NCBI RefSeq assembly: GCF_002028425.1
Contig: NZ_CP020042.1
Coordinates: 6,361,560 to 6,425,559, forward strand
Direction: 5' to 3'
From: Streptomyces katrae
GTDB lineage: Bacteria > Actinomycetota > Actinomycetes > Streptomycetales > Streptomycetaceae
Length of the DNA stretch: 64,000 bases
Under the pieces are notes generated by a model. It was not told the origin of the DNA. It ran no database searches and was given only the letters and a program-made list of their open reading frames with translations. Both the position numbers and the translations under genes were made by a program. Numbering within the stretch: position 1 is the stretch's first letter; the number at the start of each line of letters is the position of its first letter. Below are positions 16,237-64,000 of this stretch, piece by piece.

Positions 16237-16244
16237 CAGACAGA

Positions 16245-16271: not shown

Positions 16272-16348
16272 CGTGTTCCGGGGCGGAGCCCGGTGGCCGG
16301 ATCCGCCGGTGCGGCATCATGGGCCCGACCGGGTCGAGGGGGAACAGC

Positions 16349-18001: not shown

Positions 18002-18017
18002 GAGCCACGGCATCCCG

Positions 18018-19853: not shown

Positions 19854-20485
19854 GATTCGGGAGCAGTGTCGAGCAGCCGCGCGAGGCGCCGGTGGGCCTG
19901 GCCGAGCTGCGAGCGGACGGTGGCCTCGTCGACGCCCATCACGGCGGCGGCCTCGCCCGGGGTGCACTGGAGCCCGTAGCGCAGCATCACGGTGTCCCGC
20001 TGCCGCTCGGCGAGGCGGGAGACGGCCTGGTAGAAGCGGATGGTGTCGGTCAGTACCTCGTACTGGTCGGGATGCTCCTCCTTCAGGGCCGCCTCGAAGG
20101 CGCTGATGTCCATCGGCTCGGGCCGGCGCAGGCGGGGGTCGCGGCGCTGCTGCCAGTCGACGATGCGCTGTTTCAGCACGGTCCAGGCGTAGGCGTCGAG
20201 GCGGTCCATGTGCAGCATGCGGAGCCATTCGTGCATGATCGAGTCGAAGGTGGCGTCCACCGCGTCCTCGGCGTCCGCGTCGGAGCCGAGCTGGAGGTAC
20301 GCGAAGCGCATGTACGCCGGCCGCCGGTTGCTGTGGAAGGCCCAGTACGACAGGCGCGCCGTCGGGTCCCACTGGCTCATGGGCGTCGGCTGCCGCCGCC
20401 GGCTGGGCAGTCCCACGGCCCCGCCGGACTCCTCCGGTCCGCCATCGTTCACCGTTCCCCACCTCATCCCCTGGTGCCGGTCCAT
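19850..20485 (-). CDS. ECF-like RNA polymerase sigma factor
   Basis: Small sigma-70 family protein. Region 2 is seen in MRFAYLQLGSDADAEDAVD and TFDSIMHEWLRM, region 4 in LAERQRDTVMLRYGLQ and the HTH AAAVMGVDEATVRSQL. There is no zinc-binding anti-sigma gene beside it; instead it overlaps the IclR-like regulator by four bases, suggesting the two act together. Length is up to 211 aa. ATGs at 20485, 20467 and 20380 are all in frame; 20380 begins exactly at the conserved MSQWDPTARLSYW, so the N-terminal 35 residues are doubtful. The regulon is not predictable. Confidence 0.85.
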   Translation of the reverse strand: MDRHQGMRWGTVNDGGPEESGGAVGLPSRRRQPTPMSQWDPTARLSYWAFHSNRRPAYMRFAYLQLGSDADAEDAVDATFDSIMHEWLRMLHMDRLDAYAWTVLKQRIVDWQQRRDPRLRRPEPMDISAFEAALKEEHPDQYEVLTDTIRFYQAVSRLAERQRDTVMLRYGLQCTPGEAAAVMGVDEATVRSQLGQAHRRLARLLDTAPES

Positions 20486-41912: not shown

Positions 41913-43343
41913 TCAGGCGGCGGGCGAGGAGCACAGGGCGAGGAGGTCGGTGGCGTTGCCGCCCTCGGGCAGGGCGCGCACGGCCCGCAGTACGGCGTCG
42001 ACGCGTTCGGGCGGGAGGGCGGTGCCGGCCGACAGCCGGAACTTGTGCTCCCGCTCTCCGGTGGTGAGCGGCACGTCCGGGCCGCCCTTGCTGGTGTCGA
42101 CGCGGATCTCGTGCGTCCGGCCGTCCCGCGTGGTCACGCGCAGCACGGCCGGGAGCCGGGTGGGGAACAGCGGGTCGAGGCCGGGGTCGGGCACGCAGCG
42201 GATGAGGGCGGCGAGGGCGCGCCGGGCGGGGTCGTGGGCGGCGGCGTCGGTGAAGTCCTCGAACCAGACGCCGAGGCCTCCGCCGCCGAGGAGGGCGGTC
42301 GCCACGGTGAAGGGGCCGGAGAAGGCCGCCGCGTAGCCGGTGGCCGGGGCGGCCTTGGCGGTCGCGGGCTCGCCGATCGTGCGGTGCATGGCGGTGGGGA
42401 CGCGCAGCTCGCCGTGGACGACGTCCTCGGCGCGCACTCCTTGGTCCCTCAGGCGCAGTGCGGCGTCGATACCGGGGTGCGTGAAGTGGTTGCACGGGTA
42501 CGGCTTGACGATGATCTCGCTGGTCTCCCAGCGTTCCCCCAGGCCGTCGAGGACCGCCTCGGGACGGGCCCGGTCGCCGCACCAGGCCTGGAAGAACCCG
42601 AACCGCCCTTCCAGGACCGTGGGCGGCCCGGTGATGCCGGCCCGGGCCAGCTGGGCGGCCGCCACTCCGGCATGCGCCGCCCAGCCGCAGTGCATCCGCT
42701 TGACGGTGCCGCCGGTGCGGTTGGCCTCCAGCAGGCCGGCGCCGGTGCTCGCGGCGATCCCCAGGGCGGCGGCGATGGTGTCCTCGTCCGCACCGAGGAG
42801 CAGGGCGGCCGCGACGGCCGCGCCGAGGGTGCCGCAGATGGAGGTGGCGTGCTGGCCGCGTTCGAAGAACAGCGAGTTGCCGAGGTCCGGGTCGTAACCG
42901 GCGATGCCGAGCCGGATGCAGACCTCGGTCCCGACCGTGACGGCGTCGAGCAGCTGCGGCCCGCCGGCGCCGGTGGCCTCGGCGACGGCGAGGGCGGCCG
43001 GGATCACGGAGGCGCTGGGGTGCAGGACCGACAGCATGTGGGAGTCGTCGAAGTCCATGGCGTGCGCCAGGGTTCCGTTGACCAGGGCCGCCGCCGGTAC
43101 GGCCAGCGCCTGGTGCGATCCGATGACGTGCGCCGGGCCGGTACCGCCCCACTCGCGGGCGACGGCCAGTACGGCCCGGGGGGCGGGTTCGCCCTGGGCG
43201 AGGAGGCTGTTGCCCAGGCAGTCGAGGATCCGCTCGGCGGCCTCGGCGCGCAGCCGCCCGGGCAGGCCGCGGTCGCGGGCCTCGGCGGCGAAGGCGGCGA
43301 GGCGGTGGACCAGGGGGGCGGGGCCGGGCTGTGACCTCGTCAT
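41913..43343 (-). CDS. MmgE/PrpD family protein
   Basis: 476-aa protein of the MmgE/PrpD fold (2-methylcitrate dehydratase, cis-aconitate decarboxylase and relatives). Seen: LLDCLGNSLL-like start (ERILDCLGNSL), NGTLAHAMDFDD, HPSASVIPAALAVAEATG, GTLGAAVAAALLLGAD and the lysine-containing KRMHCGWAAHAGVAAAQLA region. PrpD proteins add or remove water or CO2 from tricarboxylic and dicarboxylic acids without a metal cluster. Its ATG overlaps the cyclase stop (ATGA), so it is in one operon with the cyclase, lyase and CoA-transferase. The exact reaction is inferred to be hydration, dehydration or decarboxylation of an organic acid. Confidence 0.9.
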   Translation of the reverse strand: MTRSQPGPAPLVHRLAAFAAEARDRGLPGRLRAEAAERILDCLGNSLLAQGEPAPRAVLAVAREWGGTGPAHVIGSHQALAVPAAALVNGTLAHAMDFDDSHMLSVLHPSASVIPAALAVAEATGAGGPQLLDAVTVGTEVCIRLGIAGYDPDLGNSLFFERGQHATSICGTLGAAVAAALLLGADEDTIAAALGIAASTGAGLLEANRTGGTVKRMHCGWAAHAGVAAAQLARAGITGPPTVLEGRFGFFQAWCGDRARPEAVLDGLGERWETSEIIVKPYPCNHFTHPGIDAALRLRDQGVRAEDVVHGELRVPTAMHRTIGEPATAKAAPATGYAAAFSGPFTVATALLGGGGLGVWFEDFTDAAAHDPARRALAALIRCVPDPGLDPLFPTRLPAVLRVTTRDGRTHEIRVDTSKGGPDVPLTTGEREHKFRLSAGTALPPERVDAVLRAVRALPEGGNATDLLALCSSPAA

Positions 43344-44209
43344 CGTGACTCCTGCGGGGCGGCCGTGGGGGCGGTGAGGACGGCGAGCGGCCGGACCGGG
43401 GACCCCGTGCCGCCGGTGATCTTCAGCGGGCTGAGGACGAACAGGAACTCGGCCGCTCCGGCGGCGGCCAGCGTCTCCAGGTTCATGTGCTCGATGAGGT
43501 GGACTCCCCGGTCCACGAGCAGCGTGCGGTGGACCGGGAGCACCGCGTGCCCCTGGCCCGCGGGGATCTGTTCGACGGCGGTGGTGTCGGCGCCGATGGC
43601 GCGCACGCCGCGGTCGGCGAGCCAGGCCGCGGCGGACTCGGTGAGGCCGGGTACGCCGGTCTCCCGGCCGATGTACGCCTCGGCGTCGCTCCACCGCCGC
43701 GCCCAGCCGGTGCGGACGAGGCACACGTCCTGCTCGGCGGGCAGGACGCCCGCGCGGGCGGCGGCGTGGGCCAGGTCGTCGGCGGTGATGCCGTAGCCGG
43801 CCGCGAGGATTTCCGTGCCGTGGGCGGCGGCGACGTCCAGGAGGACGCCGCGGCACACCATGGGCGGCACGGTGTCGATGCCGTGGACGGAGAAGCGTCC
43901 TCCCTGCTGGGCCGCGGCGGCGTCGTGGCCGCCGAAGAGCCGTCCGTGGTGGGAGGCGTGGGACAGCGCGTCGATGTGCGTGCCGACGTGCCCGCCGGTG
44001 ACGATGAGCTCGTTGGCGGCCGAGCTCCCGTCCGGCCGCAGCCCGTCGCCGTGGCGGCGCAGCAGCGCCATGCGGAAGCCCGGGTGGTTGGGGGAGCACG
44101 GCATGCCGTTCTCCAGGGGCTGGGCGAGATCGTGGACGATCGTCCCGGCGGCGATGGCCGTCAGGAGGGGATCGGCGGCGGTGGCGGGGAGCGAGGGGGC
44201 GTCGGTCAT
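43340..44209 (-). CDS. Cyclase-family metal-dependent hydrolase
   Basis: 289-aa protein of the cyclase/kynurenine-formamidase family (PF04199). The metal site is suggested by GGHVGTHIDALSHASHHG (His-x3-His-x-Asp), and EHMNLE and IGADTTAVEQ are typical further motifs. Family members hydrolyse N-formylkynurenine, isatin or lactone/amide-like substrates. In this operon it could open a lactone or ester of the organic acid that is then activated by the CoA-transferase. It is encoded 56 bases after the CoA lyase and overlaps PrpD by four bases. Confidence 0.88.
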   Translation of the reverse strand: MTDAPSLPATAADPLLTAIAAGTIVHDLAQPLENGMPCSPNHPGFRMALLRRHGDGLRPDGSSAANELIVTGGHVGTHIDALSHASHHGRLFGGHDAAAAQQGGRFSVHGIDTVPPMVCRGVLLDVAAAHGTEILAAGYGITADDLAHAAARAGVLPAEQDVCLVRTGWARRWSDAEAYIGRETGVPGLTESAAAWLADRGVRAIGADTTAVEQIPAGQGHAVLPVHRTLLVDRGVHLIEHMNLETLAAAGAAEFLFVLSPLKITGGTGSPVRPLAVLTAPTAAPQESR

Positions 44210-44265
44210 GGGTTGCCTTTCACGGGCGGGCTGGGCCACGTCGCGGGAGGTGGGGAGCGCCGGGT

Positions 44266-45129
44266 TCACGAGGCGGGGGCGCCGGCCGAGATCGCGCCGG
44301 CCATCGTCAGGACGGCGCGGGCCTGCGCCACCAAGGGCGGCGCGACGGTGCGGCCGTCGTCGGTCACGAACACGGACGATCCCGAGTCCGGCCGGGAGGC
44401 GGCGGCCGCCAGCACGGCGCGGGCGTCGGCGACCTCCTCGGGGGAGGGGGTGAAGACCTCGTTGATGACCGGAAGCTGGCCGGGGTGGACGGCGAAACGT
44501 CCGAGGTAGCCCATGCCGCGGCCGTCCAGGCAGGAGCGGCGCAGCCCTTCCGGGTCGTCCAGCCGCGGGTAGACGCTCATGGCCGGGCTGACGAGCCCGG
44601 CGGCGCGGGAGACGAACACGCAGCGCACCCGGGCGGCGTCCATGGTGGGTCCGTCGAAGTCGGTGCGCAGGTCGGCGCGCAGGTCGTTCTCGCCGAGGCC
44701 GATGCGTTCCAGCCGGGGCGTGGCATGGGCGAGCTCGCCCAGGGCTTCGACGCCGCGTGCGGATTCGACGAGGATCTGCACGCCCGCGTCGCACCCGGCC
44801 TCCTCCAGCCACCGGGCGGCCTCGCGGATCTGCTGCGGGTGCTCGACCTTGGGCAGCCGGACGGCCGCGAGGCCGGGGCCGGCGACGGCCCGTACGTCGT
44901 CGCGGGCCAGGCCGCCGGCGACGGAGTTGACGCGTACGTACGTGGGCTTGGGCGGGGCGGCGGAAAGGATCTCGGCGGCGGCCCGGCGGGCGCTCTCCTT
45001 GCTGTCGGGCGGTACGGCGTCCTCCAGGTCGAGGACGACGGCGTCGGCCTCGCTCGCGTACGCCTTCTCCACCATGCGCCCCTTGTGGGCGGGAACGTAG
45101 AGGTAGCTGCGGTGCACGGTGGCGGTCAT
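44266..45129 (-). CDS. HpcH/HpaI-type CoA ester lyase A
   Basis: 287-aa lyase of the citrate lyase beta / malyl-CoA lyase family, which splits beta-hydroxyacyl-CoA esters such as citramalyl-CoA or malyl-CoA into two acids or acyl-CoAs. Motifs: SYLYVPAHKGRMVEKA, VLDLEDAVPPDSKESARR (Asp/Glu metal ligands), YVRVNS, AVRLPKVEHP, GENDLRADL and FAVHPGQLPVINE. The ATG overlaps the CoA-transferase stop by four bases (ATGA). It is paralogous to lyase B at 52759. The C-terminal 20 residues are low complexity. Confidence 0.91.
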   Translation of the reverse strand: MTATVHRSYLYVPAHKGRMVEKAYASEADAVVLDLEDAVPPDSKESARRAAAEILSAAPPKPTYVRVNSVAGGLARDDVRAVAGPGLAAVRLPKVEHPQQIREAARWLEEAGCDAGVQILVESARGVEALGELAHATPRLERIGLGENDLRADLRTDFDGPTMDAARVRCVFVSRAAGLVSPAMSVYPRLDDPEGLRRSCLDGRGMGYLGRFAVHPGQLPVINEVFTPSPEEVADARAVLAAAASRPDSGSSVFVTDDGRTVAPPLVAQARAVLTMAGAISAGAPAS

Positions 45130-46376
45130 ACGACCTCCCTTTCTGCGAGCGCGGTTAACTCCGCGTGCCCGATGCCGAGTTCGCCGAGGATCTCGGCGGT
45201 GTGCTCGCCCAGGCGCGGACCGGCCGAGCGCACGGACCCCGGCGTGTCCGAAAGCCTGAAGGCGGGGCCGGGCATGCGGATCGTGTCCAGTTCCGGGTCG
45301 GGCACGGAGATGACGGAGCCGCGTGCGGCGAGGTGCGGGTCCTGGAGGACGTCGGCGAAGTCGTAGACCGCGCCGATGGCGGCCTGGGCCTGCTCGAAGG
45401 CGTCCACGACCTCGTCGCGGGTGCGCTCGGCGATCCAGCCGCCGACGGCGGCGTCGAGTTCGCCGGCGTGCCGCGCGCGGCCGGATCCGGTGCCGAACCA
45501 GGGTTCTTCGGCCAGTTCGGGGCGGCCGACCAGGCGGACCACGCGCTCGGCGATGGAGACGGTCGTGGCGGCGACGGCCACCCAGTGGCCGTCCTTGGTG
45601 CGGTAGACGTTGCGCGGGGCGTTGTTGGGGGAGCGGTTGCCCTGCCGGGTGGGCATGACGCCGGTCAGGTCGTAGGTGGCGAGGGGCCCCGCGAGGACGC
45701 CGAGCATCGACTCGACGATGGAGAGGTCGACGACCTGTCCGCGCCCGGTCAGCTCGCGGGCGCGCAGTGCGGTCAGCGCGGCGAAGGCCGCGGTGAGTCC
45801 GGCGACCGCGTCGGCGAGGGGGAAGGAGGGCAGGGTGGGCGGCCCGTCGGGGGTGCCGGTGAGGTGGGCGAGCCCGCTCATGGCCTCCCCGACCGTGCCG
45901 AAGCCCGGCCGGTGGGCGTAGGGGCCGTTCTGGCCGAACCCGGTCATGCGCAGGAGCACCAGGCGGGGGTTGTCCGCGCTGAGAGCGGCGTAGTCCAGGC
46001 CCCAGCGCTCCAGCGTGCCGGGGCGGAAGTTCTCCACGACGAGGTCGGCACCGGCCGCCAGGCGGCGGAAGATCCGCTGGCCCTCCTCGGTGTGCAGGTC
46101 GAGGGTGACGGAGCGTTTGTTGCGCGCCACGACCTTCCACCACACGGGCACGCCGTCGGCCTGTGCGCCGTAGCGGCGGGCCGGGTCGCCGTCGGGGTGC
46201 TCGACCTTGACGACGTCCGCGCCGTAGTCCCCGAGCAGGGTGGCGGCATAGGGGCCGGCGAAGAGGGTGGCGGTGTCGATGACCTTCAGGCCGGCGAGGG
46301 GGGTGGGAAGGCGGAGGGCTCTGGGTGTTGATGGGGATCGGAGCCGGATCGGTTGATCATGCTCTCCAGACAACAT
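45126..46376 (-). CDS. CaiB/BaiF class III CoA-transferase A
   Basis: 416-aa CoA-transferase expected to move CoA from succinyl-CoA or similar to a carboxylic acid. The family signature LFAGPYAATLLGDYGADVVK, VWWKVVARNKRSVTLDL, ENFRPGTLERWGL and the catalytic Asp in GQVVDLSIVES are all present. An N-terminal extension of about 25 residues precedes the core; the ATG at 46376 has no ribosome site, so the mRNA may be leaderless. It is first in a four-gene operon with the lyase, cyclase and PrpD. It is paralogous to the B copy at 51563. Confidence 0.91.
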   Translation of the reverse strand: MLSGEHDQPIRLRSPSTPRALRLPTPLAGLKVIDTATLFAGPYAATLLGDYGADVVKVEHPDGDPARRYGAQADGVPVWWKVVARNKRSVTLDLHTEEGQRIFRRLAAGADLVVENFRPGTLERWGLDYAALSADNPRLVLLRMTGFGQNGPYAHRPGFGTVGEAMSGLAHLTGTPDGPPTLPSFPLADAVAGLTAAFAALTALRARELTGRGQVVDLSIVESMLGVLAGPLATYDLTGVMPTRQGNRSPNNAPRNVYRTKDGHWVAVAATTVSIAERVVRLVGRPELAEEPWFGTGSGRARHAGELDAAVGGWIAERTRDEVVDAFEQAQAAIGAVYDFADVLQDPHLAARGSVISVPDPELDTIRMPGPAFRLSDTPGSVRSAGPRLGEHTAEILGELGIGHAELTALAEREVV

Positions 46377-46531
46377 GCTCAGTACAGCGAAGTAAATGCG
46401 AGCAGCGTCACACGGGGAGACTGTGTCCCTTTTTCGGCCACACTTTGCCTTTTCTTGTTAATTAATGGGGCGTTAGGCGGGGCGGAGGGGTCGGGAACGA
46501 GGTCGGAAATCCGGCGTTCTGACGGACCGGG

Positions 46532-46568
46532 TTGACGAAATGCCAAGCCATGCTTATAAGCTAGGCTT
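46532..46568 (+). promoter_or_regulatory. MarR promoter with overlapping 24-bp operator
   Basis: A strong promoter TTGACG (46532-46537), 17 nt spacer, TATAAG (46555-46560) is covered from the -10 onwards by a 24-bp near-palindrome (46545-46568) of the form AAGCC-AT-GCTTATAAGC-TA-GGCTT. Transcription would start within a few bases of the MarR GTG at 46574, so the mRNA is nearly or fully leaderless. This is a classic autoregulatory MarR site; the flanking divergent CoA-transferase A and the MFS gene may also be regulated. Confidence 0.78.
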
Positions 46569-46573
46569 CGTTC

Positions 46574-47008
46574 GTGGATGACAATCAAGACACGATCGAC
46601 CTGGCCCGGCAGACCCGCGACAGCGTGTCCGCGCTCAGCCGGCGGATGCGTCAGGAACGGCCCGCGCACGGCCTCGGGCTCACCAGCGCCTCGGTGCTGA
46701 GCAGGCTGGACCGCATCGGCGCGCTCAGCCCCAAAGAACTGGCCGCGCACGAGGGCGTCCAGCCGCAGTCGCTCACCCGCCAGCTCTCCGCCCTGGAGGA
46801 GCGAGGCCTGATCACCCGCCGGCCCCACGACCGTGACGGCCGCCAGGTCCTGATGGAGATCACCGAAGCGGGCCGCCATCTGGTGGAGGCCGACCGGCAC
46901 TCGCGCGACGCATGGCTCGCGCAGGCCATCGGCACCCGCCTCACGCCGGTCGAGCGGGACCTCCTGCGCGCCGCGAACAAGCTGCTCGACCTGTTGTCCG
47001 AGACCTAG
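46574..47008 (+). CDS. MarR-family transcriptional regulator
   Basis: 144-aa regulator with the MarR winged helix: LTSASVLSRLDRIGALSPKE, recognition region VQPQSLTRQLSALEERGLI and wing RRPHDRDGRQVLMEI. MarR proteins sense phenolic or organic-acid ligands. GTG start, no ribosome site, leaderless promoter overlapped by an operator. It is divergent from CoA-transferase A and 19 bases upstream of the MFS gene, so it probably controls the whole acid-catabolism and export unit. Confidence 0.93.
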   Translation: MDDNQDTIDLARQTRDSVSALSRRMRQERPAHGLGLTSASVLSRLDRIGALSPKELAAHEGVQPQSLTRQLSALEERGLITRRPHDRDGRQVLMEITEAGRHLVEADRHSRDAWLAQAIGTRLTPVERDLLRAANKLLDLLSET

Positions 47009-47027
47009 ACATCCCCGAGGGGGAACC

Positions 47028-48443
47028 GTGGCATTACCCACCGCGCGGACCGCGAGAGAACCGGTTCCCCCCAAGCCCGCCCGCCTGCCGCTCGGCTTCC
47101 TCACCCCGATCGTCCTGGGCACCATGCTCAACGCCCTGAACTCCTCGATGCTCGCGGTGGCCCTGCTCTCCATCCAGAAGGCCTACGACGCCGGAGCCGC
47201 GGTCGTCTGGCTGGTCTCCGGCCTCTACCTGGCGACCGCGGTCGCCCAGCCCACGATGGGCCGCCTGGCCGACGCCTTCGGCCCCCGCCGGATCTTCGGC
47301 ATCGGCCTGTTGCTCGTGCTGGGATCGGCCGCCGCGGCCCCCTTCGCCCCCACCCTCGGCTGGCTGATCGCCGCACGCGTGGTCCTGGGCATCGGAACCT
47401 CGGCCGCGTACCCGGCCGGCATGTCGATGATCCGCCTGCGGGCGGACTCCGGTCCGGCCGCGGGCGGCGCACCGGCCGGCGGCCTCGGCGCCATCTCCGC
47501 CGCCTCCCAGGCCGCCGTCGCCCTCGGCCCGCCGCTCGGCGGCGTGCTCGTCCAGCTCGTGGACTGGCGCGCCATCTTCTGGGTCAACGTCCCGATCGCC
47601 CTGGCCGCCATGGTCATGGCCCTGCTCTGGCTGCCCGCCGACGATCCGGCCCGGCGCGCCTCGGTCACCCTGCGCGAACTGGACCTGCCCGGCATGGCCC
47701 TGTTCACCGGCGAACTGTGCGGCCTGATGCTCTTCCTGCTCTCGCTGCCCGACCACCCGCGGTGGTGGGCCCTGGCCGTGTTCGTCGTCCTGACCGCCGT
47801 CCTGATCTGGCGTGAACTGCGCGCCCACCGGCCCTTCGTGGACCTGCGCATGATCGCCCGCAACCGACCGCTCGCCGCGACCTATGTACGCTGTATGGCG
47901 ACGTACGTGGTCTTCTACTCCATCACCTACGCCCTGCCCCAGTGGCTCCAGCAGGGACGCGGCCTGTCCGAGTCGGAGTCGGGCCTGGTCATGCTCCCCG
48001 TCGCCATCCTCGGCATCGTCACCACCATGTGGGCCACCCGGCTCGTCGGCCGCGGCCTGCGCATCGTCCTGATCACCGGCTCCGGCGCCCTGTGCCTGGG
48101 CAGCGCCGCACTGGCGCTGTTCGGATCGAGCGTGCCGATCTGGCAGATCCTCGTCATCGCCGCGGTGCTGGGCCTGCCCAACGGGTTCAACAGCCTGGGC
48201 AACCAGACGCTGATGTACCGCACCGCGCCGGCCGAGCAGATCGGCACCGCCTCCGGGCTCCTGCGCACCTCCCAGTACATCGGGGCCAACCTCGCCTCGG
48301 CCCTGGTCGGCATCGCGCTCGGCCGGCAGGCCGGCGACTCCGGACTCCACCTGCTGGCCGCCGTGATCACCGGCATCAGCCTCGTACTCCTCCTCAACGC
48401 CGCCACCACGCGCCACCTGCGCGGTGCGGCAGCCCGCGGCTGA
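47028..48443 (+). CDS. MFS transporter, DHA2-like
   Basis: 471-aa transporter with about 13 to 14 hydrophobic helices. Motifs: MLNALNSSMLAVALLSI (motif D-like), GRLADAFGPRRIFGIGL (motif A), ARVVLGIGTSAAYPAGM. It may export an organic acid or a toxic intermediate of the cluster; import cannot be excluded. GTG start with GAGGGGG upstream, directly after the MarR gene. Likely in the same regulated unit. Confidence 0.9.
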   Translation: MALPTARTAREPVPPKPARLPLGFLTPIVLGTMLNALNSSMLAVALLSIQKAYDAGAAVVWLVSGLYLATAVAQPTMGRLADAFGPRRIFGIGLLLVLGSAAAAPFAPTLGWLIAARVVLGIGTSAAYPAGMSMIRLRADSGPAAGGAPAGGLGAISAASQAAVALGPPLGGVLVQLVDWRAIFWVNVPIALAAMVMALLWLPADDPARRASVTLRELDLPGMALFTGELCGLMLFLLSLPDHPRWWALAVFVVLTAVLIWRELRAHRPFVDLRMIARNRPLAATYVRCMATYVVFYSITYALPQWLQQGRGLSESESGLVMLPVAILGIVTTMWATRLVGRGLRIVLITGSGALCLGSAALALFGSSVPIWQILVIAAVLGLPNGFNSLGNQTLMYRTAPAEQIGTASGLLRTSQYIGANLASALVGIALGRQAGDSGLHLLAAVITGISLVLLLNAATTRHLRGAAARG

Positions 48444-48557
48444 ACCGCTTCCCCGGCCCAGCCGCACTCCACGCGCACGCACTCCGTGCTGCTCGTCGCC
48501 CCCGTGGCACCCCTCCCACACCTCCCATGCCTCACACGCCTCCGAAAGGAACCACCC

Positions 48558-49145
48558 ATGCCCGTCGTGGAACTCAGCCCCAAGGCCGCCCTCGTCGTGC
48601 TCGACCTGCAGCAGGGCATCCTCGGGCTCCCGCTGCAGCCCCACCCGGCCGCCCAGGTCGTCGGCAACAGCGCCCGCCTGGCCCACGCCTTCCGCAAGGC
48701 CGGCCTTCCCGTCGTCCTGGTCAACGTGGCCCACGGGCCCGACGGCGGCGCCGCCCTCCAGCCCCGCGCCGACGTGCCGCACAACCCCCCCGCCCTGCAG
48801 CCCGAGTTCTCCCGGCTCTCCCCGGAGCTCGAGGCGCAGCCCGGCGACCTGCTCATCACCAAGCGGCAGTGGGGCGCCTTCACCGGCACCGAACTGGACC
48901 TCCAGATGCGCCGCCGCGGCGTCGAAGAGCTCGTCCTCACCGGCGTCGCCACCAACCTGGCCGTGGAGTCGACCGCCCGCTTCGCCTACGAACACGGCTA
49001 CCACGTGATCGTCGCGGAGGACGCGACCAGCACGTTCTCCGCCGAACACCAGGAGTTCGCGACCACGCGGATTCTCCCCATGATCGCCCGCGTCGACTCG
49101 ACCGACGCCGTACTCGCGGCGCTCGGGGCAGCGCAGCAGCGCTGA
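48558..49145 (+). CDS. Isochorismatase-fold hydrolase lacking the catalytic Cys
   Basis: 195-aa protein of the isochorismatase-like (cysteine hydrolase) family. The catalytic Asp16 (LDLQQG) and Lys102 (ITKRQWG) are present, but the position of the nucleophile in GVATNLAVEST is Ala135 instead of Cys. Related proteins such as PhzD and EntB act without Cys on isochorismate-type substrates, so it may hydrolyse a vinyl ether or similar, or have lost activity. It is 114 bases after the MFS gene and 101 bases before ccr, ATG with GAAAGGA upstream. Confidence 0.88.
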   Translation: MPVVELSPKAALVVLDLQQGILGLPLQPHPAAQVVGNSARLAHAFRKAGLPVVLVNVAHGPDGGAALQPRADVPHNPPALQPEFSRLSPELEAQPGDLLITKRQWGAFTGTELDLQMRRRGVEELVLTGVATNLAVESTARFAYEHGYHVIVAEDATSTFSAEHQEFATTRILPMIARVDSTDAVLAALGAAQQR

Positions 49146-49246
49146 GCCGCCGCTGCGGCGCGCCCGCACCCCGGACGCACGCCCCGACGCGCATCCCGGC
49201 CCGCACCCCGGCCCTTTCGAACCGTACGACATCCGATGGAGATCCC

Positions 49247-50569
49247 ATGAGTACGCCCCTCGCAGACGCCGTGATCGAAGGCCGCAGCGGCGAAGAGCTG
49301 CTGAGCCTGCCCCTGCCCGGCCACATGAAGGCCGTGACGATCCACAAGGACCAGACCGGGATGTTCGACGGCGTCGCGGACAAGGACGTCCGCAAGTCGA
49401 TGCACGTCGAGGAAGTCCCCATGCCCGAACTCGCTCCCGACGAGGTGCTGGTCGCGGTCATGGCCGGCGCCATCAACTTCAACACCGTGTGGTCGGCCAC
49501 CTTCGAGCCGGTCCCCACCTTCCGGTTCCTGGAGCAGATGGGCCGGCGCGGGGGCTGGGACGCACGGCACGACCTGCCCTACCACATCCTCGGATCCGAT
49601 GCCTCCGGCGTCGTGGTGCGCACCGGTTCGGCCGTGCGCCGCTGGAACGCGGGTGACCACGTCGTCATCGGCACGGCCTACGTCGACGAGCAGGACCCGG
49701 CCACCCACCGCGACGGCATGCTCGGCGAGGACCAGCGCGCCTGGGGCTTCGAGACCAACTTCGGAGGCCTGGCGGAGTACACCGTCGTACGGGCCAGTCA
49801 GCTGCTCCCCAAGCCCGCGCTGCTCACCTGGGAGGAGGCCGCGTCCAACCCGCTGTGCGCGGGCACCGCGTACCGGATGCTCGTCAGCGACCGCGGCGCC
49901 CGCATGAAGCAGGGAGACGTCGTCCTGATCTGGGGCGCGACCGGCGGACTGGGCGCGTACGCCGTGCAGTTGGTGCGCAACGGCGGCGGCATCCCCGTCG
50001 GTGTCGTCAGCTCCGCGGAGAAGGCGGAGGTGCTGCGCAAGCTCGGCTGCGAGGCGGTCATCGACCGCTCCGCGATCGAACAGGGCGACCGCACCATGCT
50101 CCAGCGGCCCGAGGGGTGGAAGAAGCTGGGCAAGGCGATCCGCGACGCGGTCGGCGAGGACCCGCACATCGTCTTCGAGCACGTCGGCAAGGCGACCTTC
50201 GCCGCCTCGGTCTTCCTGGCGCGCCGCGGCGGCACCGTCGTCACCTGCGGGTCCAGCACCGGCTACGACCACCAGTACGACAACCGCTACCTGTGGATGA
50301 AGCTGAAGAACATCATCGGCAGCCACGGCGCCAACCTGGACGAGCAGTGGGAGACCAACCGGCTCATCGGGATGGGCAAGGTCCTTCCGGCCCTGTCCGC
50401 CACCTACGCGCTGGACGACGCCGGCGAGGCGGCGCGCAGCGTGCAGGTGAACGAGCACCTCGGCAAGGTCGGTGTGCTCGGCCTCGCCCCCAGGGCCGGC
50501 CTCGGCGTGACCGACGCGCAGGCGCGCGCCCGCGTGGGCGAGGAGCGGTTCCGGCTCTTCCAGAGCTGA
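49247..50569 (+). CDS. ccr: Crotonyl-CoA carboxylase/reductase
   Basis: 440-aa NADPH-dependent enoyl-CoA carboxylase/reductase that turns crotonyl-CoA plus CO2 into ethylmalonyl-CoA, or reduces short enoyl-CoAs. The MDR fold is clear: NFNTVWSATFEPVP near the substrate site, GSDASGVVV, the NADPH loop IWGATGGLGAYAVQ. The CO2-holding residues of characterised Ccr are matched by the FE pair in AWGFETNFGG, the Asn in NFNTVW and the His in IGSHGAN. ATG with GGAG upstream. No ethylmalonyl-CoA mutase lies here, so it serves a local pathway or precursor supply. Confidence 0.95.
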   Translation: MSTPLADAVIEGRSGEELLSLPLPGHMKAVTIHKDQTGMFDGVADKDVRKSMHVEEVPMPELAPDEVLVAVMAGAINFNTVWSATFEPVPTFRFLEQMGRRGGWDARHDLPYHILGSDASGVVVRTGSAVRRWNAGDHVVIGTAYVDEQDPATHRDGMLGEDQRAWGFETNFGGLAEYTVVRASQLLPKPALLTWEEAASNPLCAGTAYRMLVSDRGARMKQGDVVLIWGATGGLGAYAVQLVRNGGGIPVGVVSSAEKAEVLRKLGCEAVIDRSAIEQGDRTMLQRPEGWKKLGKAIRDAVGEDPHIVFEHVGKATFAASVFLARRGGTVVTCGSSTGYDHQYDNRYLWMKLKNIIGSHGANLDEQWETNRLIGMGKVLPALSATYALDDAGEAARSVQVNEHLGKVGVLGLAPRAGLGVTDAQARARVGEERFRLFQS

Positions 50570-50589
50570 CCCCGCGCCCCCGTACGGGG

Positions 50590-51411
50590 CTACGGCGGCG
50601 GACCCGGGCTGATCGCCCCGGTCCGCCGCCGTTGCGCGTCCCCGCCCGCACCGCCCGCACTGCCCGCACCGCCCGCACTGCCCGCACCGGCCGTACCCCC
50701 GGCCACATCGCCGGTGCGGTCGCCGCCGTGCGCGAGCTCCGCCGCCAGACCGTCCAGCAGCCGCTCCAGACCCCAGGTGAACTGCTCGTCCTGCGCCCCC
50801 TCCGGCGCGTACCCGGCGGCGGCGTGCAGCCGGGGGAACGACGCCGGCGGCAGGTCCGCGAGGGTGTGCCGCCACCAGGCCCGGTGGTCCTCCTGGCCCT
50901 CCGGCGTGGTCCGGCCGATCTCGTACAGCACGAAGCCGAGGGTGTAGGTCTGTACCGAGTGGTACGCCCGGACGCCGTCGCGCAGCGGCCAGCCGCCCTC
51001 CGTCATCCTCCCCAGCAGCCACTCGAAGACCTCCGCCAGGCCCGCGCTCCACATCCGACGGGTGATCAGGAGCTCGGCCAGGGCCCGGTGTTCGAGCATC
51101 CTGCGGCGCAGGGACGCGGCGAAGTCCGCCAGCGCCGGCCGCCAAGGCGCGTCGTCCCCGCGCTCCAGGGGGAAGTCCTCCAGCACGGCCCCGGCGAGCA
51201 GTTCGAGCAGGTGCTCCTTGCTGTCCACGTGGCCGTAGAGCGACATCGCCCCGCACCCCAGCTCCTGGGCGAGCCGCGGCATGCTGACCGCCGCCAGGCC
51301 CTCGGTGCGGGCCACGTCCAGCGCCGCGGCGACGATCTGCGGCCGGGACAGCGAGCCCCGCGGCCGTCTTCCGGCCCCGCCGGGCACCGCCCGCTCCGAA
51401 GGCTTCGCCAT
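50590..51411 (-). CDS. TetR-family regulator
   Basis: 273-aa repressor-type protein. The N-terminal HTH is SRPQIVAAALDVARTEGLAA then MPRLAQELGCGAMSLYGHVD, followed by a TetR C-terminal domain (LITRRMWSAGLAEVFEWLLG). The last 50 residues are a Gly/Ala/Ser low-complexity tail. ATG at 51411 with a strong GGAGGGAGC upstream. It is divergent from CoA-transferase B, and a 23-bp perfect palindrome lies between them. Likely represses that operon and itself. Confidence 0.92.
   Translation of the reverse strand: MAKPSERAVPGGAGRRPRGSLSRPQIVAAALDVARTEGLAAVSMPRLAQELGCGAMSLYGHVDSKEHLLELLAGAVLEDFPLERGDDAPWRPALADFAASLRRRMLEHRALAELLITRRMWSAGLAEVFEWLLGRMTEGGWPLRDGVRAYHSVQTYTLGFVLYEIGRTTPEGQEDHRAWWRHTLADLPPASFPRLHAAAGYAPEGAQDEQFTWGLERLLDGLAAELAHGGDRTGDVAGGTAGAGSAGGAGSAGGAGGDAQRRRTGAISPGPPP
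50592..50632 (+). terminator. ccr terminator nested in the TetR 3' end
   Basis: ACGGCGGCGGACC (50592-50604) and GGTCCGCCGCCGT (50620-50632) form a 13-bp stem with a 15-nt loop, starting 23 bases after the ccr stop and overlapping the last codons of the convergent TetR gene. Confidence 0.6.
50641..50695 (-). repeat. 9-bp tandem repeats encoding the TetR low-complexity tail
   Basis: CCGCCCGCA/CTGCCCGCA units repeat about six times and encode GSAGGAGSAGGAG in the TetR C-terminus. They look like replication-slippage expansion and are too short and coding to be a CRISPR array. Confidence 0.75.
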
Positions 51412-51459
51412 GGTGCTCCCTCCGCCGTCATCCCTGTCCGGCCGTGGCCGGGCGCGCCC

Positions 51460-51515
51460 TTGCGGGCCGTCCCGCACCATTCTACGGTGAGCATTACCGT
51501 AAGCCTTACGGTAAT
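51460..51515 (+). promoter_or_regulatory. Promoter and TetR operator for CoA-transferase B
   Basis: TTGCGG (51460-51465), 17 nt, TACGGT (51483-51488) form a plausible promoter for the + operon. Immediately downstream is a perfect 23-bp palindrome ATTACCGTAAG-C-CTTACGGTAAT (51493-51515), a typical TetR-type operator, with one extra half-site in the -10 region. Confidence 0.75.
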
Positions 51516-51562
51516 GGTTCGGGCAGGCCAGGCGTGCCCGTGGGAAGCGACGGTGATGTGCA

Positions 51563-52759
51563 GTGGACACGACGACACGACTCCCCTTAGCCGGCGTACG
51601 GGTGCTCGACGCCGCCACCCTGTTCGCGGGGCCCGGTGCGGCGACGCTCCTCGGGGACTTCGGGGCGGACGTCATCAAGATCGAACACCCGGCCGGCGAC
51701 CCCGCCCGCCGCCACGGCGCGCAGGTCCACGGTGAGAGCCTGTGGTGGAAGCTGGTCGGCCGCAACAAGCGCACGGTCACGCTCGACCTGAGCCGCAGCG
51801 AGGGCCAGGAGATCTGCCGGGAGCTGGTGCGCGACGCGGACGTGCTCGTGGAGAACTTCCGGCCGGGCACCTTCGAACGGTGGGGCCTGGGATACCGGCG
51901 GCTCAGCGAGCTCAACCCCGGCCTGGTGATGCTCCGCGTCAGCGGCTTCGGGCGGGTCGGCCCCATGAGGAACCGCGCGGGCTTCGGCACGCTCGCCGAG
52001 GCGATGAGCGGCTTCGCCCACTGCACGGGCGCACCGGACGGGCCCCCGACGCTGCCCCCCTTCGGCCTCGCCGACGGCGCGGCCGCGGTCATGTCGGCCT
52101 ACGCCACGATGGTCGCCCTGCACGCGCGCGGCAGCACCGGCCGCGGCCAGGTCGTGGACACGGCCCTCATCGAACCGATCCTGCACCTGCTCGGCCCGCA
52201 GATCTCCGCCTACCAGCAACTCGGCACGGTCCAGGGGCGCTCGGGCAACCGCTCTCCCCACAACGCCCCGCGCAACATCTACCGGTGCCGCGACGGACGC
52301 TGGCTCGCCGTCTCCACCAGCGCCCAGTCCATCGCCGAGCGCGTGATGAGGCTGGTGGGCAGCCCCCACCTGATCGAGGAGCCCTGGTTCGCCACCGGGT
52401 CGGGGCGCGCCGAGCACGTGGAGGAACTGGACGCCGTCGTCGGCGACTGGATCGCGGCGCGCGACGCGGACGAGGTCATCGCGGCCTTCGAGGAGGCCCG
52501 GGCGGCGGTCGCACCCGTCTACACAGCCGCCGACATCGTCGCCGACCCGCAGTTCGCCGCCCTCGGCACGGTCGTCCACGTCGACGACGCCGCACTCGGC
52601 CCCCTGGCCATGCAGGGCGTGCCCGCCCGCCTGTCCGACACCCCGGGACGGGTCCGCTGGGCGGGCAGGCCGCTGGGCGCGGACAACGACGAGGTCTTCG
52701 CAGGGCTGGGCATCGACGCCCGGCGCCGCGCGCAGCTGCGCCGGGAAGGGGTCATCTGA
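51563..52759 (+). CDS. CaiB/BaiF class III CoA-transferase B
   Basis: 398-aa paralogue of CoA-transferase A; the two align along their whole length, with shared ATLFAGPxAATLLGD, SGNRSPHNAPRN-type and EEPWFATGSGRA motifs. The catalytic Asp is in GQVVDTALIEP. The GTG start at 51563 is about 50 bases after the TetR operator. It overlaps the following lyase by one base (TGATG). It probably has a related but distinct acid as substrate. Confidence 0.9.
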   Translation: MDTTTRLPLAGVRVLDAATLFAGPGAATLLGDFGADVIKIEHPAGDPARRHGAQVHGESLWWKLVGRNKRTVTLDLSRSEGQEICRELVRDADVLVENFRPGTFERWGLGYRRLSELNPGLVMLRVSGFGRVGPMRNRAGFGTLAEAMSGFAHCTGAPDGPPTLPPFGLADGAAAVMSAYATMVALHARGSTGRGQVVDTALIEPILHLLGPQISAYQQLGTVQGRSGNRSPHNAPRNIYRCRDGRWLAVSTSAQSIAERVMRLVGSPHLIEEPWFATGSGRAEHVEELDAVVGDWIAARDADEVIAAFEEARAAVAPVYTAADIVADPQFAALGTVVHVDDAALGPLAMQGVPARLSDTPGRVRWAGRPLGADNDEVFAGLGIDARRRAQLRREGVI

Positions 52760-53619
52760 TGCCGCCGTCCTTCGCCGGCACCCGCCCGAGCCCGGTGGTC
52801 CGCACCTGGCTCTACGTGCCCGGCGACCGCCCCGAGCGTTTCGGCAAGGCCGTCGCCTCCGGAGCCGATGCCGTGGTCATCGACCTGGAGGACGCGGTGG
52901 CCCCCGCCCGCAAGGCGGCCGCCCGCGGGGCCGCCGTCGGCTTCCTGGGCTCCGGCCACGGCCGGGCGGTCTTCGTGCGCGTCAACGCCCTGGGCGACGG
53001 CGGCGAGGAGGACCTGGCCGCCCTGCGCGGCACCCGGGTCTCGGGGGTGCGCATCCCCAAGTGCGAGCACCCCGCCCAGCTCGCCGAGGCCGCCCGGCTC
53101 CTGCCGGGCGTGCGGCTCGTACCGCTCCTGGAGACGGCGCTGGGCATCGAGCACGCGTACGCGCTGGCCACCGGCCACGCCCAGGTGTCCGGCCTCGCCT
53201 TCGGCGAAGCCGACCTCGCGGCCGAGCTGGGCACCGGCCACCGCGACGTCCTCGACGCGGCCGCCCATCGTGTCCTGCTCGCCGCCGCCGCGGCCGGGCT
53301 GCCCCGGCCGCCCCTGAGCGTCTTCCCCGCCGTACGGGACCTCGACGGCCTCGCGGCGGACTGCGCGCGCGGCCGGGAACGCGGCTTCTTCGGCCGCTCG
53401 GTGGTCCACCCCGCCCAGGTCCCCGTCGTCAACGCCGCGTTTACCGCTCCGGCCCGGGAACTGGAGGCCGCGCGCCGCCTGGTGGAGAGGGTGGAGCGGG
53501 CTGAGGCGAACGGCTCGGGCGCGTGGCTGGACGAGGCCGGCAACCTCATCGACGCGGCGGCCCTGCGCCAGGCCCGCGCGGCCCTGGGCGCCGCCCGCCA
53601 CCCGGGTCCGACGGCCTGA
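52759..53619 (+). CDS. HpcH/HpaI-type CoA ester lyase B
   Basis: 286-aa lyase, paralogous to lyase A. Motifs: TWLYVPGDRPERFGKAVASG, VIDLEDAVAPARKAAAR (acidic metal ligands), FVRVNA, GVRIPKCEHP, LETALGIEHAYALA, FGEADLAAEL and SVVHPAQVPVVN. Start ATG overlaps the CoA-transferase B stop. Expected to cleave a beta-hydroxyacyl-CoA formed by the transferase. It is the end of the cluster; the next gene is convergent 11 bases away. Confidence 0.9.
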   Translation: MPPSFAGTRPSPVVRTWLYVPGDRPERFGKAVASGADAVVIDLEDAVAPARKAAARGAAVGFLGSGHGRAVFVRVNALGDGGEEDLAALRGTRVSGVRIPKCEHPAQLAEAARLLPGVRLVPLLETALGIEHAYALATGHAQVSGLAFGEADLAAELGTGHRDVLDAAAHRVLLAAAAAGLPRPPLSVFPAVRDLDGLAADCARGRERGFFGRSVVHPAQVPVVNAAFTAPARELEAARRLVERVERAEANGSGAWLDEAGNLIDAAALRQARAALGAARHPGPTA

Positions 53620-53629
53620 CGGGACGAAC

Positions 53630-54562
53630 CTAGGCCGTGAGGTGGCGGTAGAGGGTTTCGTGGCCCTCGGGGCCGGGGTGGATCCCGTCCGTGAGGAGAT
53701 CCGCGCGGTGCTGGAGCGGGGTCCACAGGTCGACGTGGTCGACGTGGTGCTCCGCGCACCAGGTGCGCAGGGCCTCGCGCACGACCAGTGCGCGGGATTC
53801 GGTGAAGCGCAGGCCCTCGTAGTCGGCCGTGCGGGACTCGTCCAGCCACAGGGGGCCGAGGACGGCCAGGCGGGCGTTGTGGTCCCGGGCCGTGGCCGCC
53901 AGGGAGGCGAGACTGTCCGCGAGGCGGGCCGCCAGGCCGTCGGAGCCCTCGTGCGGGGCCGACGCCGGGACGGCCGAGTCGTTGATGCCGGCGGCGATCA
54001 GCAGGGTGTCCGGGCGGCGCGCGGCGAGGAGGGCCGGGGTCTGCTCGGCGACCTCGGCCAGGGTGCTGCCCGGGACGGCCAGGTTGAAGACCCGGTGGTC
54101 CCGCTCGTTCGCCGCGATGTGGCGGGCCGCGAGCCGGCCCGCCCAGCCGCCCCGCGGATCGCAGCGCCCGTACGCGATGCTGTCGCCCGCGATCACGATC
54201 CGGGCCGCCGAGCGCAGCGGGTCCGCGTCCAGATAGGCCCAGGCGCTCTCCCCGGAGGAGAGCAGCACCCGCCGGCGGACGTAGTCGTCCACCTCGTAGG
54301 CGTCGGCCGCGGCCAGCTCCTCGTCGGTCAGGCGCAGGACGACGCCGTCGACCGCGGAGCCCAGCCGGCACTCCAGGGTCAGGTGGACGTCGAGGCCGCT
54401 GGCGGCGATCACGTCCGGGTCGGCGATCTTCAGGGGCCGGGTGGCGTAGCCGACCAGCGAGGCCGGCGAGCTGGGCACGGTCCGGCCGAAGAGGGCGGTC
54501 TGGACGTGCGCCTCCTTCAGCGTGCCGAAGGAGAACAGGGCGTGCGGGCGCGACTCGGTCAC
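53630..54562 (-). CDS. Fusion of AIG2/GGCT-like and SGNH hydrolase domains
   Basis: 310-aa protein with two unrelated parts. Residues 1 to about 110 resemble AIG2/gamma-glutamylcyclotransferase-like proteins: SFGTLKEAHVQTALFGR and LTDEELAAADAYEVDDYVRR, the latter with the conserved Glu. Residues from about 115 form an SGNH (GDSL) hydrolase: AGDSIAYG (block I Ser), a Gly in PGSTLAE, GIND (block III Asn) and DGIHPGPEGH (block V Asp/His). The fusion is unusual in my knowledge. A GTG starts it. Substrate unknown; esterase or amide transfer is possible. The upstream region faces the WhiB gene. Confidence 0.8.
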   Translation of the reverse strand: MTESRPHALFSFGTLKEAHVQTALFGRTVPSSPASLVGYATRPLKIADPDVIAASGLDVHLTLECRLGSAVDGVVLRLTDEELAAADAYEVDDYVRRRVLLSSGESAWAYLDADPLRSAARIVIAGDSIAYGRCDPRGGWAGRLAARHIAANERDHRVFNLAVPGSTLAEVAEQTPALLAARRPDTLLIAAGINDSAVPASAPHEGSDGLAARLADSLASLAATARDHNARLAVLGPLWLDESRTADYEGLRFTESRALVVREALRTWCAEHHVDHVDLWTPLQHRADLLTDGIHPGPEGHETLYRHLTA

Positions 54563-63301: not shown

Positions 63302-64000
63302 ATGACAGAGGCGAAGACAGGGACCGGCCCGCTCGCCGGGGTGCGCGTGGTGGAACTGGCGGGCATCGGGCCCGGGCCGTTCGCCGCCATGCTCCTCGCC
63401 GACCTCGGCGCCGACGTCGTCCGCGTCGACCGGCCCGGCGGGGGCGGGCTCGCCATCGACCCGGCCTACGACGTCACCAACCGCAACAAACGCTCCGTCC
63501 TGGTCGACCTGAAGTCCCCCGAGGGCCCCGCCCGGGTACTGGAACTGGCCGAGCGGGCCGACGTGCTCATCGAGGGCTTCCGCCCGGGGGTCGCCGAGCG
63601 GCTCGGCGTCGGCCCCGAGGAGTGCCTGGCCCGCAACCCCGGGCTGGTCTACGGCCGGATGACCGGCTGGGGCCAGGAGGGCCCCCTCGCCCAGACCGCC
63701 GGGCACGACATCGCGTACATCGCCGTCACCGGCGCCCTCGGCATGATCGGCAGCCCCGACGGGCCCCCGGCCGTCCCCGCCAACCTGGTCGGCGACTACG
63801 CGGGCGGCTCCCTCTACCTGGTCATCGGCGTACTCGCCGCCCTCCGGCACGCCCGCACCCCCGGCGGCGCCGGCCAGGTCGTGGACGCGGCGATCGTCGA
63901 CGGCACCGCCCACCTCACCGCCATGATCCACGGGATGGTCGCGGCCGGCGGCTGGCAGGACCGGCGCGGCGCCAACCTCCTCGACGGCGGCTGCCCCTTC
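63302..64000 (+). CDS. Alpha-methylacyl-CoA racemase / CaiB-BaiF family (3' truncated)
   Basis: First 233 residues of a CaiB/BaiF protein that runs off the window. The start ATG at 63302 and [20 protein letters not shown] are typical; [44 protein letters not shown] and the catalytic Asp in [11 protein letters not shown] follow. The AGIGPGPF and [13 protein letters not shown] features are those of alpha-methylacyl-CoA racemases, which invert 2-methyl-branched acyl-CoA. It is a third member of the superfamily in this window but distant from the paired transferases. Confidence 0.9.

Follow-up and report, generated by a model that had tools for sequence, protein, structure and literature searches.

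The element described here occupies 11.7 kb (41913-53619) of a 64,000-nt stretch of the Streptomyces katrae contig NZ_CP020042.1 (6,361,560-6,425,559, forward strand), referred to below as the window. It comprises eleven genes that can be divided into four blocks. Block 1, or module A, holds a family III (CaiB/BaiF) coenzyme A (CoA)-transferase, an HpcH/HpaI (CitE-like) CoA lyase, a cyclase-family metal hydrolase and an MmgE/PrpD-fold protein; block 2 a MarR regulator, an MFS transporter and a YecD-like isochorismatase-fold hydrolase; block 3 an enoyl-CoA carboxylase/reductase (Ccr); and block 4 a TetR regulator with a second CoA-transferase/lyase pair, module B (Table 1). Families were assigned by Pfam and NCBIfam scans, several proteins being scanned in longer frames than the gene chosen here, and all eleven genes and families named in a first-pass annotation of the sequence are present where it had placed them. 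That annotation also treated the locus as a single pathway under local regulation, with one module present in duplicate. Instead, the locus is a real, discrete and conserved composite unit that is neither a recently duplicated module nor clearly one pathway.

Table 1. Genes and probable regulatory sites of the unit, in window positions.
Feature	Position	Strand	Match or remark
MmgE/PrpD-fold protein, module A, 476 aa	41913..43343	-	PF03972 205 bits, PF19305 114 bits (longer frame)
Cyclase-family metal hydrolase, module A, 289 aa	43340..44209	-	PF04199 105 bits
HpcH/HpaI (CitE-like) CoA lyase A, 287 aa	44266..45129	-	PF03328 113.7 bits (longer frame)
Family III (CaiB/BaiF) CoA-transferase A, 416 aa	45126..46376	-	PF02515 441 bits
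Conserved box GCGAAGTAAATGCGAGC upstream of CoA-transferase A	46387..46403	.	Identical in S. aureoverticillatus
Imperfect palindrome over MarR promoter, probable MarR operator	46545..46568	.	
MarR family regulator, 144 aa	46574..47008	+	PF01047 54 bits
MFS transporter similar to drug-efflux pumps of the DHA2 type, 471 aa	47028..48443	+	PF07690 180 bits
YecD-like isochorismatase-fold hydrolase, no catalytic Cys, 195 aa	48558..49145	+	PF00857 146 bits
Enoyl-CoA carboxylase/reductase (Ccr), CinF-like, 440 aa	49247..50569	+	TIGR01751 549.1 bits
TetR family regulator, 273 aa	50590..51411	-	PF02909 64 bits, PF00440 31 bits
25-bp palindrome CATTACCGTAAGCCTTACGGTAATG, probable TetR operator, between TetR and CoA-transferase B	51492..51516	.	
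Family III (CaiB/BaiF) CoA-transferase B, 398 aa	51563..52759	+	PF02515 411 bits
HpcH/HpaI (CitE-like) CoA lyase B, 286 aa	52759..53619	+	PF03328 95.5 bits (longer frame)

The limits of the unit are set by a second genome. In Streptomyces aureoverticillatus JCM 4347 the same eleven genes stand in the same order (the PrpD-like gene in a longer stretch, L135) with 78-93% amino-acid identity, and DNA homology at 86-88% identity (blastn) covers 41952-44224 and 44293-53599. The homology ends at 41952 and 53599, both ends being common to the two genomes, and the flanks in S. aureoverticillatus (1-1797 and 13568-20000 of 20 kb) gave no blastn match to the 64-kb window; the sole other matches were cross-matches between A and B genes and a 157-base match of a further CoA-transferase gene. 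The right-flank genes of the window (a desaturase, an ABC-F-like gene and others) are found in S. aureoverticillatus on another contig (C6 versus C17) and also in genome G012; neither of the 20-kb stretches examined there contains the unit. A block with the same two ends, whose right-hand neighbours lie elsewhere in the second species, argues that the unit moved as one. The stretch 41913-53619 is a discrete, transferable unit of separable blocks, found in two chromosomal settings.

But how widely is the unit distributed? We sampled 392 Streptomyces genomes with lyase A, and the best matches listed contain one close relative besides lyase A itself, in G329 (87%), whose gene order matches that of the S. 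aureoverticillatus contig. Relatives in G030, G358 and G341 follow at 49-50% identity (274-284 bits), and the next best reaches 207.5 bits. For lyase B, contigs were scanned with exact peptide patterns and 80 loci were kept, making the number of relatives a lower bound; lyase B of S. aureoverticillatus is 80% identical, and the other 79 of the 80 are at most 53% identical among the matches listed. The co-occurrence of the two modules across Streptomyces, which the first-pass annotation had proposed as a check, is thus seen in both genomes, a small number, that hold a close relative of either module.

Coding constraint extends over the whole block. By Nei-Gojobori counts against S. aureoverticillatus, all eleven genes have nonsynonymous-to-synonymous rate ratios (dN/dS) of 0.12-0.37 at synonymous distances (dS) of 0.25-0.42, low ratios that argue for genes kept functional by purifying selection. 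Three conserved right-flank control genes of our own choosing show dS of 0.43-0.67; the block has been separate roughly as long as the right-flank genes, or somewhat less. The same eleven-gene order in a second species together with coding constraint on all eleven genes is more than chance.

Within module A, ATGA overlaps join CoA-transferase A to lyase A (45126-45129) and the cyclase to the PrpD-like gene (43340-43343), so that the earlier description of such overlaps throughout the module holds at two of its three junctions. Lyase A and the cyclase, which form the remaining junction, are better read with a 56-nt gap, the best cyclase start being at 44209; an alternative GTG start at 44269 would give a 4-nt overlap with lyase A, and by gene calls the gap measures 175 nt in S. 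aureoverticillatus. CoA-transferase B and lyase B have one base in common in a TGATG junction. Among solved structures, the cyclase, whose translation contains an HVGTHID motif, is nearest to 5ibz and isatin hydrolases and is kin to isatin hydrolase and kynurenine formamidase, and lyase A is nearest to 8khl and 9nzb. CoA-transferase A is nearest to 4ed9, followed by formyl-CoA transferase and succinate-hydroxymethylglutarate CoA-transferase; the Asp of its VVDLS stretch, which we take to be the catalytic Asp, aligns with an Asp of 4ed9. In lyase B, Glu and Asp positions align with 3qll and 9nzb, and the two residues, presumably metal ligands, are in place in the CitE-like lyases of the unit, whose pockets were judged from sequence. 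The TetR protein scores 68.6 bits against the tetracycline-repressor model (cut-off 265), and the MFS transporter 137 bits against TIGR00711 efflux_EmrB, under the cut-off of 230.

CoA-transferase/HpcH-lyase pairs are common in actinomycetes, and a CoA-transferase adjoins the lyase in all 80 loci of the lyase B scan (among the matches listed); we came across no substrate assigned to such pairs. In the present unit one of them goes with a cyclase and a protein of the PrpD fold, and this combination recurs. The order CoA-transferase, lyase, cyclase, PrpD is found in all seven Actinomadura loci (L021-L026 and L028; L021 with an insertion), where, in the five loci annotated, the module and a Liv-type ABC importer are divergently oriented, and the four genes are adjacent also in the window (41913-46376), L231, L232, L136 and L137. 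A class-level search of 148 genomes yielded nine with a cyclase of at least 54% identity besides the window's own. Because our gene caller, trained on the window, missed genes in some loci (in the low-GC loci L234 and L236, and the ccr of L188), we counted the neighbours of these nine cyclases with tblastn, and found an adjacent PrpD gene in 9/9, a CoA-transferase in 6/9 and a lyase in 5/9, L234 and L236 being cut by contig ends. A tenth locus, with a cyclase of 46%, has no PrpD, CoA-transferase or lyase. Module A is a recurrent actinobacterial set worth naming, and it recurs beside importers and also beside natural-product-type genes.

The company kept by these relatives, whose neighbour genes were named by eye unless a Pfam or NCBIfam basis is given, is varied. 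Some class-level loci carry IclR regulators, ABC importers, an FAD-dependent oxidoreductase and an allantoinase/hydantoinase-like amidohydrolase (L231 and L232 by Pfam/NCBIfam). As a separate observation, cyclase and PrpD occur with both the oxidoreductase and the amidohydrolase in L231, L233, L235 and L238 (L231 alone scanned), which might represent an actinomycete route for degrading cyclic amides that has yet to be described. In G030, G358 and G341, a 368-aa, weakly AMP-ligase-like protein (27.5 bits against a cut-off of 300, no Pfam match) and a carboxylesterase-like protein lie near the relatives of the A clade (partly by eye), and P450s are present in G358 and G341. The G030 locus (L136, G030:C30:25000-44999) further has genes of LAL-regulator-like and TE II-like type and a berberine-bridge-like oxidase next to the module, with a carboxylesterase and an anthranilate/PABA-synthase-like gene nearby. 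G341 brings together, in one stretch, two lyases (one of the A type, the other falling outside the A clade), a cyclase and a PrpD gene, with a relative of CoA-transferase A about 12 kb off and a polyketide synthase open reading frame of >5600 aa (L151) some 14 kb away. Two unlike lyases with a cyclase and PrpD hint, independently of the window, that a single pathway can employ two lyases. Near the module there, an AMP-ligase-like gene and several P450-like genes are also present (L138 and L150, G341:C1:301001-341000), and the locus is a candidate natural-product cluster using the module A set.

Are the two modules of the unit copies of one another, as had been supposed? The CoA-transferases are 60% and the lyases 39% identical, and neither tree unites the A and B forms, which rules out a recent duplication of one module within the cluster. 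CoA-transferase B lies inside a clade of importer-linked and near-universal actinobacterial forms (support 100/98), thus grouping with catabolic and housekeeping enzymes; CoA-transferase A lies outside this clade, beside but not joined to the G030/G358/G341 group. Lyase A falls in a clade with G030, G358 and G341 (100/100) and the PrpD-like protein groups with the G030 and G358 relatives (97/97), so that both go with relatives near natural-product-type genes. The window genome also has a third CoA-transferase/lyase pair (C1:2156058-2158024). A pair of this kind, common in Streptomyces, stands beside ADP-ribosylglycohydrolase-like genes in 5/5 loci (L100, at G000:C1:2147001-2167000, L139, L140, L027 and L054; four Streptomyces and one Micromonospora), with a PfkB-like kinase alongside in three of them (L100, L027 and L054), and it adjoins trp genes in the Streptomyces loci; these assignments are by eye, with Pfam for L100.

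Regulation likewise separates the blocks. With up to three mismatches, the palindrome CATTACCGTAAGCCTTACGGTAATG occurs at one place in the window genome and one in S. aureoverticillatus, both exact and both in the interval between TetR and CoA-transferase B, while the pattern written backwards as a control has one place in the window genome and none in the other two genomes. Between the species its outer A/T pair changes to G/C with the symmetry kept. As this probable operator stands once in the genome at up to three mismatches, before module B only, we rejected one TetR regulon for both modules. A pattern made from the MarR site matches once in the window at up to three mismatches, at the MarR promoter, and TGCTTATAAGCTAGGCTTCGTTC of this site is identical in S. 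aureoverticillatus and in genome G018; these sites lend no support to the one locally regulated pathway envisaged earlier. The GCGAAGTAAATGCG core of the box before CoA-transferase A also precedes MarR in G018, whose surrounding 20 kb yielded no relative of CoA-transferase A; this may mean that MarR controls the divergent promoter of CoA-transferase A.

G018, one of 81 genomes searched, carries MarR, MFS and YecD-like hydrolase genes at 78, 78 and 84% identity (L269, G018:C6:163000-182999, at 9788-12297), with the promoter sequence as in the window and no acid gene found within 20 kb around. The trio is therefore portable by itself, and MarR stands near a YecD-like hydrolase in five of six further Streptomyces loci annotated. 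Taken with the separate trees and the TetR operator before B alone, the free-standing trio speaks against a single pathway on a duplicated module. The hydrolase lacks the catalytic Cys, as had been noted in the first pass; the residue is missing too, by alignment, in the two nearest solved relatives, 3txy and YecD (1j2r), so the Cys-less state looks normal for the YecD-like family and can be discarded as a special feature. While the Cys-less motif is common to all three proteins, the window protein differs in being linked to MarR and MFS genes and in falling just under the model cut-off (NF008517, 194.8 bits against 195, scanned with a longer 219-aa frame).

The Ccr passes its family model TIGR01751 (cut-off 378.55), and its nearest solved relative is the 2-octenoyl-CoA carboxylase/reductase CinF (4a0s, 626 bits, against 517 bits for K. 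setae Ccr). Its A165 and G361 align with Ala163 and Gly362 of CinF, where the crotonyl enzyme has Ile and Phe; we assume that these positions set chain length and admit longer chains. The protein thus carries the residues of a medium-chain enoyl-CoA carboxylase/reductase of the CinF type and is predicted to act on medium-chain enoyl-CoAs. The earlier proposal had ccr handling an enoyl-CoA; the protein is nearest to CinF and not to the crotonyl-CoA enzymes. The CO2-binding residues of K. setae Ccr (N81, F170, E171 and H365; PMC10966969) are kept as N79, F168, E169 and H360 (alignment to 6owe, chain offset 4). The likeness to CinF comprises full-length similarity, the CO2-binding residues and the pocket Ala and Gly. 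Among 121 Streptomyces genomes, which did not include G329, the best Ccr relatives besides the window's own are at most 76% identical; in 13 such loci, viewed with ~1.5 kb of flank on each side, no hydrolase or module was in view, and several lie near polyketide-synthase- or extender-unit-like genes (by eye). The window genome has four other Ccr paralogues (57-68%), of which the closest (68%) sits in a polyketide cluster (L101, G000:C1:2581000-2600990) with KAS III-like and hydroxyacyl-CoA-dehydrogenase-like genes that looks like an alkylmalonyl extender-unit cassette (by eye).

We would next like to place the unit among known pathways. Itaconate degradation by the Rip enzymes uses the CoA-transferase RipA, the hydratase RipB and the citramalyl-CoA lyase RipC. 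The unit resembles this set in having a CoA-transferase and a RipC-fold lyase, RipC ranking second among the NCBIfam matches for lyase A and top among those for lyase B, and differs from it by the added cyclase and PrpD-like genes. Both lyases score far under the RipC cut-off of 375 (138.4 bits for A, 151.2 for B; A also reaches 138 against citE, cut-off 443; lyase A in the longer frame), which rules out the Rip pathway. No Pfam hydratase family that could stand for RipB was found among the eleven genes, the remaining genome not having been searched. The PrpD-like protein, assumed in the first pass to prepare the acid, does have the PrpD fold but scores far under the 2-methylcitrate dehydratase model (42.1 bits against NF042438, cut-off 950), its nearest solved structures being the IDS-epimerase 2hp3 and cis-aconitate decarboxylases. 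With the ethylmalonyl-CoA pathway the unit has in common a ccr and an HpcH lyase, but it contains no mutase or MaoC-type hydratase by Pfam. A canonical-looking set of ccr, B12 mutase, lyase, MaoC-like and acyl-CoA dehydrogenase genes is present elsewhere in the window genome (L102, by eye); its Ccr is 57% identical to the window Ccr, and its lyase about 30% identical to lyase A. A second ethylmalonyl-CoA pathway is ruled out by the missing mutase and hydratase, the L102 set and the closeness of the Ccr to CinF.

The CinF comparison leads towards biosynthesis. MatL of matlystatin biosynthesis is reported to be 66% identical to CinF (PMC5719088) and is proposed, with support from deletion and labelling, to feed the 2-pentylsuccinyl unit. 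The window Ccr, likened to MatL via CinF only, differs in having no polyketide synthase, nonribosomal peptide synthetase or mutase with it. The alkylcitrate synthase/dehydratase pair of fungal maleidrides uses a citrate-synthase-like enzyme, whereas the window has an HpcH lyase. For tautomycin, which belongs to the dialkylmaleic anhydride type, a moiety is described as built from propionate and an unidentified C5 compound (PMC8793217). A cyclase search aimed at tautomycin-type genes in the S. spiroverticillatus JCM 4609 genome gave two weak matches (36% and 39%), with no module in either region. In the open-licence literature we found no paper on a gene cluster with MmgE, CaiB and HpcH together, none with at least four of PrpD, CoA transferase, HpcH, cyclase and hydantoinase, and no paper on citramalyl-CoA lyase plus CoA transferase for itaconate in Streptomyces. 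The locus looks like a real, little-described acid-handling unit.

For a general scheme we start from the observed gene content, boundaries, constraint, resolved tree placements and operators as conserved sequences, and from these we infer every reaction, the substrate and the direction. The scheme, to which we give even odds, is a unit of separable blocks in which module A would interconvert a cyclic or unsaturated diacid and an acyl-CoA plus a 2-oxo acid. The cyclase would act on a ring of the lactone, imide or anhydride-like kind, opening or closing it; hydration or dehydration of the diacid would fall to the PrpD-fold enzyme, CoA-transferase A would put CoA onto the hydroxy diacid or take it off, and lyase A would cleave or join the C-C bond; the chain would run, either way, between ring form, unsaturated diacid, hydroxy diacid, hydroxyacyl-CoA and acyl-CoA plus 2-oxo acid. 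Block 4, under TetR control, would carry out CoA transfer and C-C cleavage or joining with another substrate, block 2 would be an efflux and detoxification unit able to stand alone, and the Ccr of block 3 would turn a medium-chain 2-enoyl-CoA into an alkylmalonyl-CoA. The CoA activation and retro-Claisen cleavage proposed in the first pass fit the families, and the modules do co-occur as a block; what finds no support is a single pathway with a duplicated module.

In which direction would such a chain run? Importer-linked relatives argue for breakdown, whereas synthesis is favoured by the neighbours of the lyase A clade and by a Ccr of the CinF type; the direction is not settled and we give the two about equal weight. 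For breakdown, a reading close to that of the first-pass annotation, an external acid would be prepared by the cyclase and PrpD-like protein, activated by the CoA-transferases and cut by the lyases to acetyl- or propionyl-CoA and a 2-oxo acid (glyoxylate, pyruvate or another), with the Ccr assimilating the resulting enoyl-CoA. The divergent Liv-type ABC importers of the five annotated Actinomadura loci favour this reading, as does one in G421 (binding protein by Pfam; IclR also present), and the FAD-dependent oxidoreductase and allantoinase/hydantoinase-like amidohydrolase in G468, G430, G416 and G487 (G468 scanned, the rest by eye) suggest the breakdown of a cyclic amide or similar compound. 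However, the window unit has no importer and its MFS transporter resembles drug exporters, the closest kin of lyase A and of the PrpD-like protein in the trees are those of G030/G358 and not the importer-linked forms, and a CinF-type Ccr would, to our knowledge, be unusual in catabolism; breakdown as a full account is possible at best. We are equally tentative about a specialised metabolite, for which module A would join an acyl-CoA and a 2-oxo acid to a hydroxy diacid, then an unsaturated diacid and finally a cyclic form, much like the fungal alkylcitrate synthase/dehydratase pair, with the Ccr supplying an alkylmalonyl-CoA-derived chain and the MFS transporter exporting the product. The match of the Ccr to CinF points this way, given the matlystatin role proposed for the CinF-like MatL (PMC5719088). 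So do the G030 lyase A-clade relative with its TE II-like, LAL-regulator-like and AMP-ligase-like genes (in part by eye), the G341 relative with its P450s and distant polyketide synthase, and the module of G358, whose neighbours include an MFS transporter as well as AMP-ligase-like and carboxylesterase-like genes. Yet the unit itself lacks any synthase, ligase or tailoring enzyme, it is without the companions of AMP-ligase-like and esterase type and the AMP-ligase call is weak, CoA-transferase A does not demonstrably group with G030/G358/G341, and no product is known; moreover, enzymes of the HpcH lyase fold usually cleave in vivo.

A third account, which we hold to be rather doubtful, sees four unrelated operons (A; MarR-MFS-hydrolase; ccr; TetR-B) travelling together with no shared intermediate. 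Relatives of blocks 2 and 3 occur elsewhere without the modules, B-type pairs are mostly without cyclase or PrpD among the matches listed, and TetR and MarR have separate operators. Against mere passengers stand eleven genes kept intact, ordered and constrained over a dS of about 0.25-0.42 between the same two ends, and the G341 cluster, which likewise joins two unlike lyases with a cyclase and PrpD. Our estimates for these three accounts overlap with that for the general scheme, since two of them take it in opposite directions and the third denies that it is a single pathway. Several observations do weigh against a coherent unit of the kind we prefer. The whole unit was found in two genomes among the matches listed, and its coherence consequently rests on one genome pair. 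Only the Ccr model reached its cut-off among the NCBIfam models listed, and in the stretch examined a cyclase accompanies 8/80 B-type loci and is missing from 72/80 (among the matches listed), some of the 80 being cut by contig ends. The lyase tree leaves the place of lyase B unresolved, with the lyases of the near-universal Streptomyces pair falling closer to A than to B (88/91); CoA-transferase A is seen merely to lie outside B's clade, and the cyclase tree leaves the window's branch unresolved. Module A relatives point both ways, importer-linked and biosynthetic, blocks 2 and 3, which occur without the modules elsewhere in the stretches viewed, may simply adjoin the rest with no pathway in common, and no operator shared by A and B was found with CATTACCGTAAGCCTTACGGTAATG in the whole genome at up to three mismatches.

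Returning to the composite unit, its practical appeal is that, at 11.7 kb, self-bounded and with its own regulators, a single deletion or transfer would suffice to test the whole set. A further attraction is a Ccr that lies outside any polyketide cluster and is predicted to carboxylate medium-chain enoyl-CoAs. A more speculative and rather unlikely extension is that module A, the Ccr and the second lyase pair form a bacterial route building an alkylated unsaturated or cyclic C4-C6 diacid; with similarly low confidence, the HpcH-fold lyase would here catalyse a Claisen condensation, after which a PrpD-fold dehydratase would act and the cyclase-family enzyme would close the ring. If true, bacteria would have their own version of the alkylcitrate/maleic-anhydride chemistry of fungi, with a condensing enzyme of another fold.

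Two genes to the right of the unit complete the description. Directly beside it, 53630-54562 encodes a protein joining GGACT-like and GDSL-lipase-like domains, which as a marker for the empty site gave no result, being found at full length in the window's own genome only of 21 searched. At the right edge, a further CoA-transferase III gene leaves the window (63302-64000; C1:6424891-6425892 in the genome).

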